Source of the DNA: Chthonomonadaceae bacterium
Lineage (GTDB): Bacteria; Armatimonadota; Chthonomonadetes; Chthonomonadales; Chthonomonadaceae
Length of the DNA stretch: 47,373 nucleotides
Direction: 5' to 3'
Assembly: GCA_025352825.1 (NCBI GenBank)
Contig: JANXSG010000070.1
Location: 1-47,373, forward strand
The notes under the pieces are model-generated. The model worked only from the letters and a program-made list of their open reading frames with translations, was not told where the DNA came from and did no database searches. Shown here one piece after another: positions 10,515 through 36,031 of the stretch (positions are counted from its first letter, which is position 1; each line of letters opens with the position of its first letter). Made by a program: the position numbers and the translations under genes.

Positions 10515-10658
10515 ATTTATAGCTCCTATCAAACTCATTAAAGTATGCTTACTTACGTTTAAGTCGTTCAGATATTGAAACATGTTCCATGTTTGAAAAA
10601 GCAGGGAATTGAGAAGTGAATACTCTGCTGCCAATGAACAGATCTATTTTAAAATTAT

Positions 10659-10674
10659 CTTTTGCAATTACCTC
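10659..10674. repeat. Isolated terminal inverted repeat half
   Basis: CTTTTGCAATTACCTC is identical to 16 bases of the 18-base right end of the repeat at 10873-11094. It stands alone in the AT-rich gap 10515-11236, 563 bases before a small HTH gene. The similar half at 14157-14174 also precedes a paralogous HTH gene. Confidence 0.7.
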
Positions 10675-10872: not shown

Positions 10873-11094
10873 GAGGTAATTGCAAAAGTCGTAAATCTCA
10901 CATAATTGCCCATCTCTTTGCCTAACCCCCCGGCCCCCTTCCCTGCACACACAAACGATAAAGCTGTTTGCGTTAGATATGGGGGAGCACTAACGATCTA
11001 GATTCCCCCTTCCCTCCGAGGTACGAGGGAATCAGGGAAGGGGGGCAGGGGGGTTAGGCAAAAACTGTTCTAGTTGGACTTTTGCAATTACCTC
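10873..11094. repeat. MITE-like element, 222 bp, 18-bp perfect terminal inverted repeats
   Basis: The left end GAGGTAATTGCAAAAGTC (10873-10890) and right end 11077-11094 are exact reverse complements. TAT flanks both sides (10870-10872, 11095-11097), a possible 3-bp target duplication. The interior is non-coding. It has C-rich and G-rich blocks (CCTAACCCCCC at one side, GGGGGGTTAGG at the other) that can pair, and two smaller hairpins around an AAACGATAAAGC core and around CCGAGGTACGAGG. A diverged inverted copy is at 35450-35653 and a partial copy at 28997-29166. No transposase is in the window. Confidence 0.85.
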
Positions 11095-13724: not shown

Positions 13725-14365
13725 AAGAGACATGTTTCATCCTCAAAGAGAGTTAGAATAGATACCTGACCTTCCTTGAAGATATATACTGACATCCCAG
13801 CCACTGCAGTTAAATATCAGTATAAATAGTGAGGCTGTTAACTAGTAAATTTGGTGCAAAGCAGCTTTCAAAAAATTAAATCCGAAGACGAAAAGTGAAG
13901 TAGTTGACAAATATATCCTTACTTCATTATAAGTAGCAATCCATCCAAACTCTATGATGTACTCCGTGAAGAGTGCACTGAACAAACTGGATTGCTGTAG
14001 TACCAGAATCAATGAGGAAATCACCGCCGGGAAGCAGTGTGGTTACTCGTTCTTTACAAGCAGGATACTTACAATCTGTATGGCCCTGTAATGATATTTT
14101 TCTTTACTTCTTGTATCTGAATTCATCAGGGCCTTACATATTTTTCAACTGATTTGAGACTTTTGCAATTACCGCTTATGAAAAGTACTAAGAAATAGTA
14201 GAAAAAATGGAATAAGTACTTCGGAGAAGATAGTCGAAAAATATTAATATTATAAACAAGTATATTTGACTCTATAAAAGGATATTTATGCTGGCATAAT
14301 TAAGTATAGATGTACTATAATCTTCACTTATGTGCTAATATATTTGGAAGTGCTGGAGGGCTAGA
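13725..14365. other. 641-base gap carrying one repeat end (14157-14174)
   Basis: No convincing gene. GACTTTTGCAATTACCGC at 14157-14174 matches 17 of 18 bases of the MITE-like right end. The A-rich sequence after it (14175-14260) loosely matches that after the half repeat at 10659-10674. A GGAGG just before the HTH start is the only translation signal. Confidence 0.55.
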
Positions 14366-27402: not shown

Positions 27403-28965
27403 TTAGGAAGGAGGAGCAGCCTCAGGTTTGGGTTCCGCGACTTCCACCTTTGCCCCGTCAGAAAGCTCGTACTGGCCTGTACTGACTACTCTATCACCTG
27501 CCTTGACCCCTTCTATGATCTCAATTCCCGGCTTTCCTGCAGCGCCAGAGTGTATCTCTCTAAAATGCGCCACTCCATCTGCACTCACCTGGAATATCCC
27601 ATCCTTGCCCTCTTTTTGAACGACGCATACCGCAGGCACTACCACGGCATGACTGTTCGTTCTTAGCACCACGACCGCACTTAAATAGGCGCCAGGCCGT
27701 GCGGTTCCTTCATGATTATCAGCACTAAGGCGTACCTTCATAAGGTTTGTCTGTGGATCGACCTGACCCACAGTGATCACAGACCCTTTCAAATCCAAGC
27801 CTGGAATAGCCGGTTCGTAGATCGTTGAAATCATTCCAGGCTTCAACTTCGCTCCCTCCTCTGCGGAAATATTGCATACCAGATTCAGTGATGATGAACT
27901 TCCGATTTCCAGTAACGGTGTCGCTGGATCTGCCATATCTCCCGGATTCGAATTTCTTCGCACGACAATACCGTCAATGGGAGATTTCAGTTCTGAATAA
28001 CCGGACGCAACTTTAGCCGATTCCAGATCAGCTTTTTTCTGTGTAGCTGTATTCAGACCTGCGCGACTCTCTTCACTCTTCATCGCCACTAGCACTGCTC
28101 CCTGTTTCGCTTGAGTGAGGGCTGTTTCCGCTTGAGTAACTTTCGTAGTCCCGCTCTCTCGTGCCAGGTTGAAGAGCTCTTCTGCCTGAGTGACTCTCAG
28201 AACTGCAGAATTCAAATCCTCACTTCTTGCCCCGACTTTGATAAGGCTAAGCTGCTGCTGAACGGATGCCAAAGCTGCATTTGCAACTTGAACGGCTGTA
28301 TGTGCATCCTCGAGTTGTCGGCGTGAGTCAACACCTTTCTCAAATAACATCGAGGTTCTTTTGTCTTCCGAAGCAGCCCGATCACTGTTAACCTGAGCCT
28401 GCTTAACGGTAAGTTCTGCCTGGACAATCTCCTGTTTCCGTGCTCCAGCTCTCAGTTTGGCGAGATCAGTTCTGGCCAATTCCAGTCCTATTTGAGCCTG
28501 CTTTACACTGCTTTCTCTGTCTAATTTAGCTGCTGTCAGAGCCAGTTCACCGAGGGCCAAAGCACTCGTATGATCCTGCTGCGCAGCGTGCAAAGCAAGA
28601 TTCGATTGATTGGCAAGCGCGGAAGCTGAGCTAAGTGCTGACTGTGCACTTTTCTGCTGTGCTTGAAGAAGCCCGTTCTCAAGAACCGCCACTAACTGAC
28701 CACTATGAACACGTTCGCCTTCTCGCACGAGAATAGATCTTATCCTTGCCGGACTCATTGCAGCTACCTTAACAGAATAACCCTGGGCGGGACTAAGCAC
28801 ACCTTGAACAGTTAGGGTCTCTTCCATAGAATGGATAGCTGCCGTCGAGATTTCAACTCTTGCTGGATCAGCCGCATGATCTTCTGGTTTAGCGGCAGAA
28901 TCTCCCTGTTTTCCACACCCAAACAAAAAAACGAGAGCGCAGGCCAGCAGGTAAACCAAAAGCAT
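27403..28965 (-). CDS. RND-type efflux periplasmic adaptor (membrane fusion lipoprotein)
   Basis: 520 residues from ATG 28963-28965 (GGAG eight bases before); a longer frame reading into the repeat at 28997-29166 is not credible. Lipobox VFLFGC sits near residue 16. The barrel-sandwich half GYSVKVAAMSPARIRSILVREGERVHSG (about 60-87) is followed by an unusually long Ala/Gln-rich coiled-coil hairpin (about 95-320). The second lipoyl half is YSELKSPIDGIVVRRNSNPG (about 326-345), then a beta-barrel and a membrane-proximal domain ending in VKAGDRVVSTGQYELSDGAKVEV. It would link an inner-membrane pump to an outer-membrane channel; neither partner is in the window. It follows zwf on the same strand after the repeat. 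Confidence 0.92.
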   Translation of the reverse strand: MLLVYLLACALVFLFGCGKQGDSAAKPEDHAADPARVEISTAAIHSMEETLTVQGVLSPAQGYSVKVAAMSPARIRSILVREGERVHSGQLVAVLENGLLQAQQKSAQSALSSASALANQSNLALHAAQQDHTSALALGELALTAAKLDRESSVKQAQIGLELARTDLAKLRAGARKQEIVQAELTVKQAQVNSDRAASEDKRTSMLFEKGVDSRRQLEDAHTAVQVANAALASVQQQLSLIKVGARSEDLNSAVLRVTQAEELFNLARESGTTKVTQAETALTQAKQGAVLVAMKSEESRAGLNTATQKKADLESAKVASGYSELKSPIDGIVVRRNSNPGDMADPATPLLEIGSSSSLNLVCNISAEEGAKLKPGMISTIYEPAIPGLDLKGSVITVGQVDPQTNLMKVRLSADNHEGTARPGAYLSAVVVLRTNSHAVVVPAVCVVQKEGKDGIFQVSADGVAHFREIHSGAAGKPGIEIIEGVKAGDRVVSTGQYELSDGAKVEVAEPKPEAAPPS

Positions 28966-28996
28966 ATTGCCTGACTCCACTGACCCCTTCGCTGCT

Positions 28997-29166
28997 CGCA
29001 CAAACGATAAAACTGTTTGCGCCAGGGAAGGGGGAGAGTCAAAAACAGAAGTTCCCCCTTCCCTCCGAGGAACGAGGGAATCAGGGAAGGGGGTTAGGGG
29101 GTTAGGCAGATTTTCCCTCCGAGGAACTAGAGAATCAGCGAAGAGGGTTAAGGGTTTAGGCAGATT
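28997..29166. repeat. Partial MITE-like repeat with a duplicated half
   Basis: The core 28997-29108 matches the interior of 10873-11094: an ACAAACGATAAAAC hairpin, TTCCCCCTTCCCTCCGAGG, then a G-rich arm ending GGTTAGGCAGATT. The segment 29110-29166 is a second, diverged copy of the last half (CCCTCCGAGGAACT, then AATCAGCGAAGAGGG and TTTAGGCAGATT). The terminal inverted repeats are missing. It lies between zwf and the efflux-adaptor gene. Confidence 0.8.
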
Positions 29167-29171
29167 ATTTT

Positions 29172-30674
29172 TTAACATGGGAAGTTCCAACCACGCCCTC
29201 CTGTAAGCAGTTTTTGGGCAGCTTCCGGCCCCCAGGTTCCTGCCGCGTAGTTCGGAAAAAGCGGACATGTGAGATTGTGCCATGAATTCAGTATTGGTGT
29301 GATAATACTCCAGGCCTCCTCCACTTCATCGTTTCGTGCGAAGAGTGAGGCGTCGCCACGCACTGCATCGAGTATCAAGCGTTCGTAGGCATCCCGGATG
29401 GGAGTATCAAAGGCAGATCCGTATTTAAAATCCATCCGCACAGGCTGAATATTCATTTGTGGCCCTGGCTCTTTACTAATTATCTCCATGGAAGCGCCTT
29501 CATCAGGCTGTATGCGTATGGTTAGACGATTTGGCTTCAAGGATCCACTCCCAAGTCGAGCAAAAAGGACTTCGGGAATTGCCTTAAACTGAATCTGAAC
29601 TTCAGTCACTCGCTTCGGCATACGCTTGCCAGCCTGTACATAGAAAGGAACTCCCGCCCATCTCCAGTTTTCAATTGAAAACTGAAATGCGGCGAACGTC
29701 TCAGTCTGTGAATCTGCTGCAACTCCCTCTTCCACACGATATCCTACGAGATCATCTTTATCCCCATGCCCATATTGACCACGAACAGTATATCGGGCTA
29801 CATCATCTAGCTCGAACCTACGTATAGCCTTCAGAACTTTCACTTTTTCATCGCGAACCGAATCCGCATCCAGTGAAACAGGTGGCTCCATGGCAATGAG
29901 AGTCAATACCTGAAGTGCGTGATTCTGCACAATATCCCGAGTAATACCAGATTTCTCGAAGTAGTTGCCGCGTCCTTCCATTCCAAGAGTTTCTGCGACA
30001 GTAATCTGGATATTATCGATATAGTTCTTGTTCCAAATCGGCTCAAATATCTGATTGGCGAAGCGCAGAACAAGAATGTTTTGAACTGTTTCTTTACCGA
30101 GATAGTGATCAATTCTATAGACCTGATCTTCTTTGAAAACGGATGCTAATTCTTGATTTAGCGCCTTTGCTGTTTCCAGATCATATCCAAAAGGCTTCTC
30201 GATAATCAACCTCGACCATCCTTTATGATCTCCGGTTAAATTTAACCCAGCCTCGCCGAGGTGATGTACAATCTCACTGAAGTTATCAGGAGGCGTGGCG
30301 AGATAGAACAGTCTATTACCACCTAGTTTATGCTCCTGATCTAACTCTGCAAGACGAATTCCCAGGTTTTTGTAACCTTCAGAGTCATCGAGATTAGATC
30401 GGTGGTAGTACAGCCTGGCAGAAAAAGATTCCCACTCAGCGCCTTCTGTGGAAAGCTGCGGTGCAAACTCGGTGATAGCTTGTTTCATGTCAGCGCGAAA
30501 GGCAGAATCGTCTTTGTCTCGTCGGGCGAAAGCAACTACTACGAATGGATCTGGAAGCAGTCCGCTACAATGCAGGCTGTAGAGTGCGGGAACTATTTTT
30601 CTTCGCGTTAAGTCGCCAGTGGCGCCAAAAAGCACGAATGCACATGGATCTAAATTTTCGTTAGGACGTATCAC
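29172..30674 (-). CDS. zwf: Glucose-6-phosphate dehydrogenase
   Basis: 500 residues from GTG 30672-30674, which has AGGGAG about eight bases before it and gives the usual length; the open frame extends a further 86 codons into two palindromic repeats and is not a real start. The NADP-binding site FVLFGATGDLTRRKIVPALY lies at about 14-33. The active-site segment VYRIDHYLGKETVQN carries the catalytic His (about residue 185). The substrate-binding YFEKSGITRDIVQNHALQVL block is present, and the end ...NYAAGTWGPEAAQKLL matches the family. It catalyses the first step of the oxidative pentose phosphate pathway. No gnd or pgl gene is adjacent. Confidence 0.95.
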   Translation of the reverse strand: MIRPNENLDPCAFVLFGATGDLTRRKIVPALYSLHCSGLLPDPFVVVAFARRDKDDSAFRADMKQAITEFAPQLSTEGAEWESFSARLYYHRSNLDDSEGYKNLGIRLAELDQEHKLGGNRLFYLATPPDNFSEIVHHLGEAGLNLTGDHKGWSRLIIEKPFGYDLETAKALNQELASVFKEDQVYRIDHYLGKETVQNILVLRFANQIFEPIWNKNYIDNIQITVAETLGMEGRGNYFEKSGITRDIVQNHALQVLTLIAMEPPVSLDADSVRDEKVKVLKAIRRFELDDVARYTVRGQYGHGDKDDLVGYRVEEGVAADSQTETFAAFQFSIENWRWAGVPFYVQAGKRMPKRVTEVQIQFKAIPEVLFARLGSGSLKPNRLTIRIQPDEGASMEIISKEPGPQMNIQPVRMDFKYGSAFDTPIRDAYERLILDAVRGDASLFARNDEVEEAWSIITPILNSWHNLTCPLFPNYAAGTWGPEAAQKLLTGGRGWNFPC

Positions 30675-30714
30675 TACTTGCTCCCTGGATTTACGAATAT
30701 GAGAGGTTTCAGTT

Positions 30715-30775
30715 ACCTCACCCCCCGTCCCCTCTCCCATCTTGCTCGTTCCTCGCAAAGGAGAGAGGTGACTAT
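30715..30775. repeat. C-rich palindromic intergenic repeat
   Basis: A CACCCCCCGTCCCCTCTCC arm and a GGAGAGAGGTG arm (ending near 30770) can pair across a loop of about 20 bases. It resembles the palindromes at 30866-30895 and 5025-5060 in the CCCCTCTCC core. It lies in the 347-base gap 30675-31021 upstream of zwf. Confidence 0.55.
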
Positions 30776-30865
30776 GTCCTGAGATCCTCAAATTTACGTT
30801 ATGTTTTAAACTAATCGAAATTGTTTCCTCGAAGTGGAAACATAGAATACCAAATATCTTTATCT

Positions 30866-30895
30866 CCCCCTCTCCCGAAGCTTCGGGAGAGGGGG
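30866..30895. repeat. 30-bp perfect palindrome
   Basis: The halves 30866-30880 (CCCCCTCTCCCGAAG) and 30881-30895 are exact reverse complements with no loop. The hairpin at 5025-5060 shares CCCCTCTCCC-AAGCTTC-GAGGGG, so this is a dispersed palindromic family. It lies between the S55-like gene and zwf, where it could serve as a terminator for the former, whose stop lies just past it on the other side, or as a promoter-blocking hairpin. Confidence 0.75.
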
Positions 30896-31021
30896 TCGGG
30901 GGGTGAGGGCTGAATCTAAAGAATTCAACCAATTGCGAATAACTAACTCTCGATTTGACCTTTCCTCACGCGAACCAAATTATCGTAATAGGGGCAGGGA
31001 AGACAGCCGGGCTGTAAATTG

Positions 31022-34000: not shown

Positions 34001-35380
34001 GTGCCCGTTTGAGATATCTACATACATATCCATTCTGCGAATAGGAAGCGGAGCGAATGGATTACTGCTGGTTATATTAGTTATGTCTGCTATATCTGTG
34101 GTGGAGATGCTAGAGATATCGTTTGAGTCGAAGTAGGTATTGAATCGAGTGATCTTACCAACATCGTCTGCCTGAATGGAAGTGGTGACTTTCGCCATGA
34201 CATCGCCAGGAGTTCCATGCACTCTTCGTATAGCGGATCTTGCCACAAGTCTCAGCAGCAGCGGTGAGAGATCAGGATTCTGAAATATCTGGCATGAGAA
34301 AGATTGATTCCGATTTGTGGTGGAATCCCGCACAGTTATAGAGACAGGGATCATTGCTGGATTTGTGCCAATTTCGCCACTGACAGAGAAATCTCGATCC
34401 TGCTCCAGAGTGCCAATGATTGGCCCCGCAATAGCGATATGATGAGAAACTTGCAGACCAGAAAAGATATCCACAATATAAGCAGAAGTGATGGCAGCAT
34501 TTAACGCTCCCAAGCCGAAGAGGGGATGCCCGAACCCCAGCATTCGGTTCCCACGCCGATAGGTGACCGTTCCTGTACCACCTGTCATTATATCCCCGGT
34601 GGAGAGGAACGTTCCGAAAGCTGAGCCTGGCTTCAGCGGGACTCCTGCAAAACTACCGTCTCCCGCGCCGCTGCCTCCTGTGACAGTCAATGCAAAGCCT
34701 CGTTTGTCTAGCTCTTTTTGAAACCATTCTTTCAGTGGCGCGTCAATTCCACTCACAGTCAAGAGAGTATTGGCGAGGTGGAGAGATGCGGTTCTATCGG
34801 TAGAATGGGTATCTCTGGAAGCGTTCAATACAAGATGAGTTATTTTTCTGCCATCGAGATGGATTGGCTGTTTCAATGAGATCGACTCATTTGGCTTTAT
34901 GTCAGCGCCAGCATGGCGCATGGCGGGGTTAAAATAGGACGGTTTTTGAGGTATATCCGGATCCCAAGCTTCCAGCATGTCCTCTATGGGAGTTACCATA
35001 CCTACAGGCTCTTTTGGAAACTCTTCTCCCATCGAGAAGGCGCCAATGACTTTACCATTAATATAAATCGGGCTCCCACTCATACCCTGAATCAAATTCG
35101 CACCACGCTCGGTAATCGGACCGCCCTTCATCCGAATCAATATAAGGTCGTGGCCGCTATTCTCTTTCTTCAGAATTCCTACAATGGTCACGGAGAATCG
35201 GGATATGGCCGTTCCCTTAAATGTTGTTAGTCCATAGCCTTTCATACCCGGCTTAACATGACTGAGCGGCATAATATCCGAGTACACGGGAGGTTTCGCG
35301 TACACAATGGAAGAGAAGCAGAGCATTAAAATAACAAAAATAATATAGTGATGGAAGGAAATTTTACGTCTCAGGAACAT
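31022..35380 (-). CDS. SpoIVB-type (S55) peptidase domain fused to a seven-repeat beta-propeller
   Basis: 1452 residues from ATG 35378-35380, with GGAGG 12 bases before it. A signal peptide covers residues 5-28. The S55-like N-terminal domain (about 30-420) shows the serine motif GANLIQGMSGSPIYINGKVI at about 93-112 and the GFGHPLFGLGALN motif near 282-294. A beta region (about 420-570) follows. About 600-790 is low-complexity and Pro-rich. A seven-repeat propeller lies at about 800-1085, each repeat with IYAGTG..G.IYKI-like strands. Then come a coagulation-factor-like sandwich and an Ig-like C-terminus. In SpoIVB the catalytic His precedes the Ser; here the likely order is reversed. It is probably a secreted or periplasmic processing or signalling protein. 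No partner is identified. Confidence 0.85.
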   Translation of the reverse strand: MFLRRKISFHHYIIFVILMLCFSSIVYAKPPVYSDIMPLSHVKPGMKGYGLTTFKGTAISRFSVTIVGILKKENSGHDLILIRMKGGPITERGANLIQGMSGSPIYINGKVIGAFSMGEEFPKEPVGMVTPIEDMLEAWDPDIPQKPSYFNPAMRHAGADIKPNESISLKQPIHLDGRKITHLVLNASRDTHSTDRTASLHLANTLLTVSGIDAPLKEWFQKELDKRGFALTVTGGSGAGDGSFAGVPLKPGSAFGTFLSTGDIMTGGTGTVTYRRGNRMLGFGHPLFGLGALNAAITSAYIVDIFSGLQVSHHIAIAGPIIGTLEQDRDFSVSGEIGTNPAMIPVSITVRDSTTNRNQSFSCQIFQNPDLSPLLLRLVARSAIRRVHGTPGDVMAKVTTSIQADDVGKITRFNTYFDSNDISSISTTDIADITNITSSNPFAPLPIRRMDMYVDISNGHNTAGIERIFLKQGRYEPGETLDVGVALKPYRGEQQVQNLKIKIPADLPTGRYQLVVRGGQANVMRFGSFILSNGPQDQRTPPVNVLQMVNRLKDKESNTDLIAILQLNTAAPALEGEKLSQLPPNISALMRSDRNSGVRLERDELRQTSATSYIVSGQQTLMVMIVRKNTQEPPAGNNYNGPSSQAGGSVNQPSLPGIGTPGAPFNEEMEAEGTHKNIHALRNSVSPILNDTSPLNLSQETEKWMVALLPPKPSPSKPKTTVPPSAVKNSADPKIVVTVESLESPVPVNQDPPNEKPVGRQVQVWRQTAKSDFAAGKFDGASVTAAGLLELAPTLKLLVSTPETYIWCLASAPDGTIYAGTGTSGKILKISAAGVSTLLCQLPVVSVQSLLIAKDGSLWAGSGLKGRVYRIAPDGRFTLVCTLRENYILSMVQNSRGDIYLGVGGTANIYKIPFADQNKTSETTPVLVLESKSDHILCMTIDSKDNIYAGAGNAGILYKISVDGTTSALYDAKDNAITACTADKSGNIYIGTGPRASISRIAPDGTATPVFDKPGSFYTAMRTAPDGSLYASTVNTVYHIFPTKDGSWQRTNILPLDNPRDVDFLSIAILPNGGVAAGTGNVGEIYISQPSTVEKQTGTFESVIHDAKIASQWGEIRWQGSFPTGLVAHVYTRTGPLSEPDISWSKWELVKMRAGLANEGRVISPSARFIQYRIVFEGNANQNLSENSPGIREISIGYMPKNQPPRVVFQSPLGGENWSHSQQPRWQALDADNDTLTYTLSCTSDDGVSWKPIESLETSNTVSLGKTSTVDELKKNLDSDKAISDKLKNALVQGAGTVSAGSSAKTSSLLKENSKRWDTSRMTDGVYRLRVVASDAVSNAVDSLTGEAISEPFIICNALPVFNAAAPGYTADHRVQITGTVSQGLAAIIGVQFRIDGGDWTAAVPQDGLFDSSREEFRILSSALTTGKHSLEIQAFNSAGNHKSEMINIDVP

Positions 35381-35449
35381 GTGGATAGGTACCTCCGATT
35401 CGCGAAGCAATTTGAGGAGTTAGAGTGCAGAATTGCAGACATTATTTTT

Positions 35450-35653
35450 TAGGTCTCTTGCAAAAGTCTGAAATGCATCTATTTACCTAACCCCTTTCCC
35501 TCGTACCTCGGAGGGAAGGGGGAAAATTTGTCGTTGATTCTCCCTCTTCCCTAACGCAAACTGCTTTATCGTTTGCGTGTGCAGGGAAGGGGGCTAGGAG
35601 GTTAGGCAAAAGAAGTCTCAATTCTGTTGGATTCATGACATTTGCAATTACCT
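35450..35653. repeat. Diverged, inverted copy of the MITE-like element
   Basis: The ends AGGTCTCTTGCAAAAGTC (from 35451) and ACATTTGCAATTACCT (to 35653) correspond to the terminal inverted repeats of 10873-11094. The interior is the reverse complement of that element: CCCTCGTACCTCGGAGGGAA, ACGCAAACTGCTTTATCG, then GGGGGCTAGGAGGTTAGGC. It fills the gap between the S55-like gene and hisI. Confidence 0.8.
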
Positions 35654-35659
35654 ATATAG

Positions 35660-36031
35660 TCAGTATTTTTCTACTAGCGGTTCGGCAACGGTTTCCAACG
35701 ATTCTCCGTCCTGATCGATTCTGCGGAAGAAACATGATCGGTAGCCTTCGTGACATGCTGCTCCAACCTGTTCCACCTTCACCAGCAGGCAATCTTGATC
35801 GCAGTCGACGTACATTTCGCGGACATGCTGTACATTTCCCGAGGTCTCCCCTTTAATCCAGAATTTCTGGCGGGATCGGCTCCAGAAAGTGGCACGCTTC
35901 GTTGAGATAGATTGTTGTACGGCTTCAATGTTCATGTAGCCTACCATCAGAACATCGCCATTCATAATATCCTGTACTACAGCCGGGATCAAACCGTTAG
36001 CATCAAACTTCAAATTCTTCGGTACCTGCAA
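35660..36031 (-). CDS. hisI: Phosphoribosyl-AMP cyclohydrolase HisI
   Basis: 123 residues. No ATG fits; TTG 36029-36031 is the only in-frame start of normal length, with GGAG about 12 bases before it. The zinc and metal residues are in place: YVDCDQDCLLVKVEQVG with C-x-x-x-C (about residues 76-80), then ACHEGYRSCFFR. It opens the purine ring in the third step of histidine synthesis. It stands 24 bases after hisF, without the rest of the his operon. The end of the gene is six bases from the repeat at 35450-35653. Confidence 0.95.
   Translation of the reverse strand: MQVPKNLKFDANGLIPAVVQDIMNGDVLMVGYMNIEAVQQSISTKRATFWSRSRQKFWIKGETSGNVQHVREMYVDCDQDCLLVKVEQVGAACHEGYRSCFFRRIDQDGESLETVAEPLVEKY

Follow-up and report, generated by a model that had tools for sequence, protein, structure and literature searches.

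What kind of element is the 222-bp segment at 10873-11094, and what moves it? The segment lies in the window analysed here, a stretch of 47,373 nucleotides that constitutes contig C122 of a 4.87-Mb genome of the order Chthonomonadales, Armatimonadota, assembled in 298 contigs (genome G000). The original prediction, which drew on the letters of the window alone, was a MITE-like family moved in trans. Paired copies, an insertion sequence that shares the ends and an empty site all support that prediction, in which movement in trans is the inferred part. We consider it very probable that the segment is an IS1182-derived MITE, that is, a gene-less element with ends recognised by an IS1182-family transposase, moved in trans and accompanied by a 4-bp duplication. 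The features of the window that bear on this reading are collected in Table 1.

Table 1. Positions of the element and of related features in the window
Feature	Position	Strand	Remarks
Composite MITE (very probable), subfamily S4, 222 bp, IS1182-type ends	10873-11094	+	99% identical copy at G000:C60:6024-6245
Left terminal inverted repeat, GAGGTAATTGCAAAAGTC	10873-10890	+	Position equals the ends of IS1182-family relics and of relatives elsewhere
Right terminal inverted repeat	11077-11094	-	Perfect complement of the left repeat, 18/18 bp
Core, 146-bp GC-rich palindromic repeat B (TTTGCCTAACCCCC...GGGGGTTAGGCAAA)	10917-11062	+	
Second MITE copy, diverged, with B core, 204 bp, ends AGGTCTCTTGCAAAAGTC / TAGGTAATTGCAAATGTC	35451-35654	-	
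Palindrome B copy alone, without MITE ends	28967-29108	+	
54-bp tandem extension of B copy	29113-29166	+	
Solitary MITE end, 2 mismatches	10657-10674	-	
Solitary end of another MITE subfamily (S2)	14141-14175	-	18-base end at 14158-14175

The 222-bp element is short and non-coding and contains no transposase gene. Its perfect inverted ends are present as described, and its interior, which had been predicted to form hairpins, folds far better than shuffled sequences (z = -11.0 as DNA and -10.6 as RNA). Within the window, the 18-base end has 5 matches at up to 3 mismatches, compared to 0.07 expected. The diverged inverted copy that had been placed at 35450-35653 is real, with its limits corrected by one base (Table 1), and has interior arms unlike those of 10873-11094. 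Both of the single ends that had been reported also exist, the second one belonging to a different subfamily. What had been taken for a partial MITE copy at 28997-29166 has no end sequence and turned out to be the B palindrome alone, followed by a tandem extension. In addition, the segment 23931-23996 resembles the interior of MITE subfamily S3 and lacks recognisable ends.

Genome-wide, the 18-base end matches 247 times at up to 3 mismatches, compared to 6 matches of a reversed-pattern control. A BLAST search of the host genome with the 222-bp element yielded 70 matching stretches at E ≤ 0.001, and further full-length relatives of the element show 77-92% identity. Pairs of ends were counted in 1.26 Mb of the 4.87-Mb genome, in regions mostly chosen for holding copies. 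In this sample, 55 pairs of ends face each other, at lengths of 49-573 bp save for one of 2.3 kb; the large number of paired copies bears out the prediction. Unpaired ends are numerous as well (70, against 165 ends at up to 3 mismatches). A few of the pairs overlap, and among the 52 that remain after the removal of overlaps, only 4 lie mostly in coding sequence, compared to 41 expected at random, in accord with the predicted intergenic siting of the family. At the lower extreme of length is a 49-bp minimal element, nearly just two ends, that lies within a TAACACTT/AAGTGTTA palindrome (G000:C273:12468-12516, the same as L031:9468-9516). Two contigs, C22 and C142, start with an identical stretch of 140 bases (1-140 in both) that finishes in the MITE end GATGTAATTGCAAAAGTC, which points to an additional MITE subfamily, long or multi-copy, in which the assembly was interrupted. 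A plasmid or virus origin of the element was rejected, with no DNA match in plasmids and no exact end in viral contigs.

The flanks of the paired copies carry the mark of insertion. An exact 4-bp duplication is present in 19 of the 54 pairs (0.93 expected under shuffled pairing, with a maximum of 4 in 300 trials) and missing in 35, and when the boundary is moved by 1-3 bases, the count falls to 0 or 1. Two more pairs show 5-bp duplications; in one of them, the C60 copy that is 99% identical to the window copy, the duplicated sequence is ATACT. With flanks that read TTAT/TATA, the window copy lacks an intact 4-bp duplication; the TAT duplication originally suggested was rejected, given that the family duplicates 4 bp and that 3-bp matches number 1, compared to 1.8 expected. 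Elements with ends of the same type in five other genomes (G020/G025 and G003/G012/G013) are flanked by 4-bp duplications in 15 of 27 cases, against 1.35 expected. Furthermore, a natural empty site on C21 matches the joined flanks of the copies at C261:20600 and C212:4795 over 239 bases, at 92-93%. The empty site reads CATACATACTTGTTG and the filled sites read CATACATACTT-element-ACTTGTTG; ACTT is duplicated without loss of sequence, and the empty site agrees with the insertion boundary.

One alternative concerns the copies free of duplications, among them the window copy with its flanks ATTTATTTTT/AAAAATAAAT. IS1272, an IS1182-family element of Staphylococcus, is reported to replace stem-loops, swapping out inverted-repeat targets without duplication (PMC5678879), and similar events could have produced these copies. 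In 4 of 50 copies, the flanks indeed show strong inverted similarity to each other, compared to 1.3 expected (p = 0.03). However, the mean over all copies is not different from that of the control (p = 0.19), 19 of the 54 copies have ordinary 4-bp duplications, and sequence loss is absent at the empty site, so that we regard this origin as unlikely. The same mean, which is not significant, led us to reject general palindrome targeting by the main MITE family.

The IS1182-derived reading also calls for a partner that shares the ends. Of 291 genomes of the phylum, 8 contain exact GAGGTAATTGCAAAA ends, and high copy numbers are confined to the window genome and to a single genus from another family (G020, G025). 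G020 falls within the order to which the window genome belongs. The MITEs of this genus are 85-89 bp long and have 4-bp duplications. Relics with GAGGTAATTGCAAAA ends are found both in the relatives and in the window genome: between the same ends, G020 has a 1427-bp relic that encodes a broken transposase, and G025 has a 1.4-kb copy with a single internal stop codon; on contig C213 of the window genome (about 34724-35705, 982 bp), a decayed transposase lies between the left end GAGGTAATTGCAAAAGTG and the right end GAGCCTTGTGCAAAAGTC. In the set of 41 genomes of relatives, the best transposase matches (in G020, G025, G040 and G000) are all in genomes that carry the ends. The insertion sequence sharing the ends, the search for which had been suggested, is thus represented by relics in G000, G020 and G025, and GAG-type ends recur in IS1182 relatives. 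A profile search of the assembled window genome found no intact transposase, only fragments on C95, C139, C149 and C213. Because the C95 fragment runs into the contig end, an intact multi-copy insertion sequence may have been lost in assembly. The suggestion that a transposase elsewhere in the genome may move the family is supported by relics with matching ends, and the assembled genome supplies only relics and fragments of the enzyme itself.

The transposase matches the Pfam models DUF772 and DDE_Tnp_1, as well as IS1182 and IS5 models, and shares about 39-45% identity, across 95-97% of its length, with plasmid proteins annotated as IS1182 family, one of which is ISUnCu17-like. With one stop codon read through, the query scored 75.7 bits with the NCBIfam IS1182 equivalog (cut-off 270) and 76.5 bits with IS5_4 (cut-off 140). 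Because both scores are below the cut-offs, the IS1182 label rests on the relatives that are so annotated; the low score weakens the statement that the enzyme is a member of IS1182, not the statement that it acts in the manner of annotated IS1182 elements and has ends in common with them. GAG..TTGCAAAA-type ends occur in relatives from several phyla. These relatives, 1.3-1.5 kb long, include a Comamonas element with ends GAGGCTCTTGCAGAAC and a TGGT duplication, ISUnCu17 of Aeromonas (GAGCCTCTTGCAAAAGGC, ATGA), a Nitrospinota element (GAGCCTCTTGCAAAAGTC, AGTA) and a Desulfobulbaceae element (GAGCCTCTTTCAAAATGA, TTAA). The window genome itself contains 34 ends of the GAGCCTCTTGCAAAAGTC type, compared to 0 in controls.

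The near equality of the IS5 and IS1182 scores, both below their cut-offs, and the failure to find an intact transposase in the assembled genome could also be taken to mean that a transposase of another family (e.g. IS5 or IS4) mobilised the elements and that the resemblance of the ends is due to convergence. That course of events appears quite improbable, considering that a relic in the same genome has both end types flanking an IS1182-like transposase and that annotated IS1182 members combine matching GAG..TTGCAAAA ends with the same 4-bp duplication.

Taken together, these observations translate into a model of an IS1182-derived MITE. Under this model, an IS1182-family transposase of the DDE type, from the subgroup that includes ISUnCu17, would be supplied by another element and would bind the 18-bp ends. 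It would then move the segment, inserting it mostly between genes and duplicating 4 bp, sometimes 5, of the target. Because the assembled genome has only broken copies of the enzyme, we infer both the movement in trans and the origin of the enzyme in the IS1182-type lineage. At the centre of the element lies a second repeat in its own right, the GC-rich palindrome B, common to several MITE subfamilies that are otherwise unrelated.

Copies of B have a mean column identity of 81% across MITE subfamilies with unrelated arms. B is also found outside MITEs, without their ends, for example at 28967-29108, as a dispersed lone palindrome, and similar B arms form pairs in further genomes of the phylum, again without MITE ends. 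The very stable fold, the intergenic siting and this solitary occurrence of B are what could be expected of REP/BIME-like palindromes retained for their structure as RNA or DNA, for example as terminators or in regulation, rather than of transposons, but the 4-bp duplications, the empty site and the combination of shared ends and varied interiors speak for transposition, and Rfam yields no family at the gathering level, just sub-threshold, miRNA-like hairpins, which leaves this explanation contradicted for the ends and highly improbable for the repeats as a whole, although for the B core alone it is possible. B and its relatives, which have CCTAACCCCC..GGCCCCCTTCCC arms, are scattered over several families within the phylum (window 10917-11062 and 28967-29108; L134-L151).

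The idea that B is itself a transposon that makes a duplication was rejected, as neither a clean empty site nor a duplication of at least 4 bp was found; three-base matches of the B flanks occur in just 2 of 37 cases, compared to 0.3 expected. A 112-bp element on C55 was rejected as an empty site of B because it retains the arms of B and is therefore an internal deletion. In the window, the B copy at 28967-29166 lies within the long N-terminal part of the minus-strand ORF 27403-29283, which we take by eye to be periplasmic adaptor-like; the true start codon of this ORF is probably downstream of the B repeat. Another GC-rich palindromic repeat, PHPPTPSPEASGEG, at 30759-30918, is located in the extended N-terminus of ORF 29172-30932, presumably, again by eye, glucose-6-phosphate dehydrogenase-like.

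A further repeat, C, is 157-159 bp long, with ends GAGGGYGGGTCAAAAGTC that resemble IS1182-type ends, and is present at L121:1626-1782, L117:1538-1695 and nine other loci. Exact 4-bp duplications flank 6 of 10 copies, compared to a mean of 1.0 in a shuffled control; the test is weak because the flanks are alike and the control reached a maximum of 6. Copies of C lie in G- or C-runs of GC-rich palindromes, also inside B within a MITE. These patterns could conceivably reflect modular MITEs, in which B would be independently mobile and would jump into, or be exchanged between, subfamilies, while C might be a second IS1182-like MITE that targets G-run arms. If this speculative reading is true, there would be nests of three levels (C in B in a MITE) and a preference for palindromes in the IS1182 lineage.

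IS1182-derived MITEs are a kind of element already known, and what is new here is their occurrence in the poorly studied Armatimonadota; among the papers searched, we found nothing relevant on transposons of Armatimonadota or Chthonomonas. An unexplained repeat family of this phylum is hereby tied to a named IS family, and with its boundaries, duplication length and relic partners known, correct annotation of these repeats becomes possible. The nested palindromes could serve as natural test cases for a preference of IS1182-type elements for palindromic targets. Given the link between IS1182-type elements and such targets in IS1272 (PMC5678879), they constitute a lead, although the main family shows no general preference for palindromes. 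Apart from the IS-family link and these nests, the findings represent ordinary genome biology.

The closest described counterparts are the IS1182-related MITEs of Methanosarcina acetivorans, namely, a 160-bp element in 14 copies with 26-bp inverted repeats, a 4-bp direct repeat and ISMac2 as the partner, and a 169-bp element with 25-bp inverted repeats and no direct repeat (IR 25, DR 0) (PMC3852290). Those elements and the window family are similarly non-coding and 150-250 bp long, with a 4-bp direct repeat and inverted ends shared with an IS1182-family insertion sequence. However, they belong to another domain of life, the comparison drawn here is one of described features, and the window family consists of numerous subfamilies whose interiors are unrelated and which have a GC-rich palindrome core in common. 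ISUnCu17 and similar IS1182-like elements (Aeromonas caviae pKAM643_2, Comamonas pBHB) likewise have GAG..CTTGCAAAA-type ends, a 4-bp duplication and a homologous transposase, but are autonomous and 1.4-1.5 kb long. The ISUnCu17-like end is GAGCCTCTTGCAAAAG-like, whereas the window MITE end is GAGGTAATTGCAAAAGTC, and the window genome has both types. An IS1182 member from Paracoccus has 16-bp ends and a 4-bp repeat (PMC3281130). The B core resembles REP/BIME repeats in being a GC-rich hairpin that is found alone, with arms of a similar kind in further genomes of the phylum, but differs in that it is a passenger inside MITEs, with no insertion signature found. Finally, IS1272 belongs nominally to the same IS family, and palindromes are relevant as targets in both cases; unlike IS1272, the window family shows ordinary 4-bp duplications in a third of its copies and a sole empty site from which no sequence was lost.
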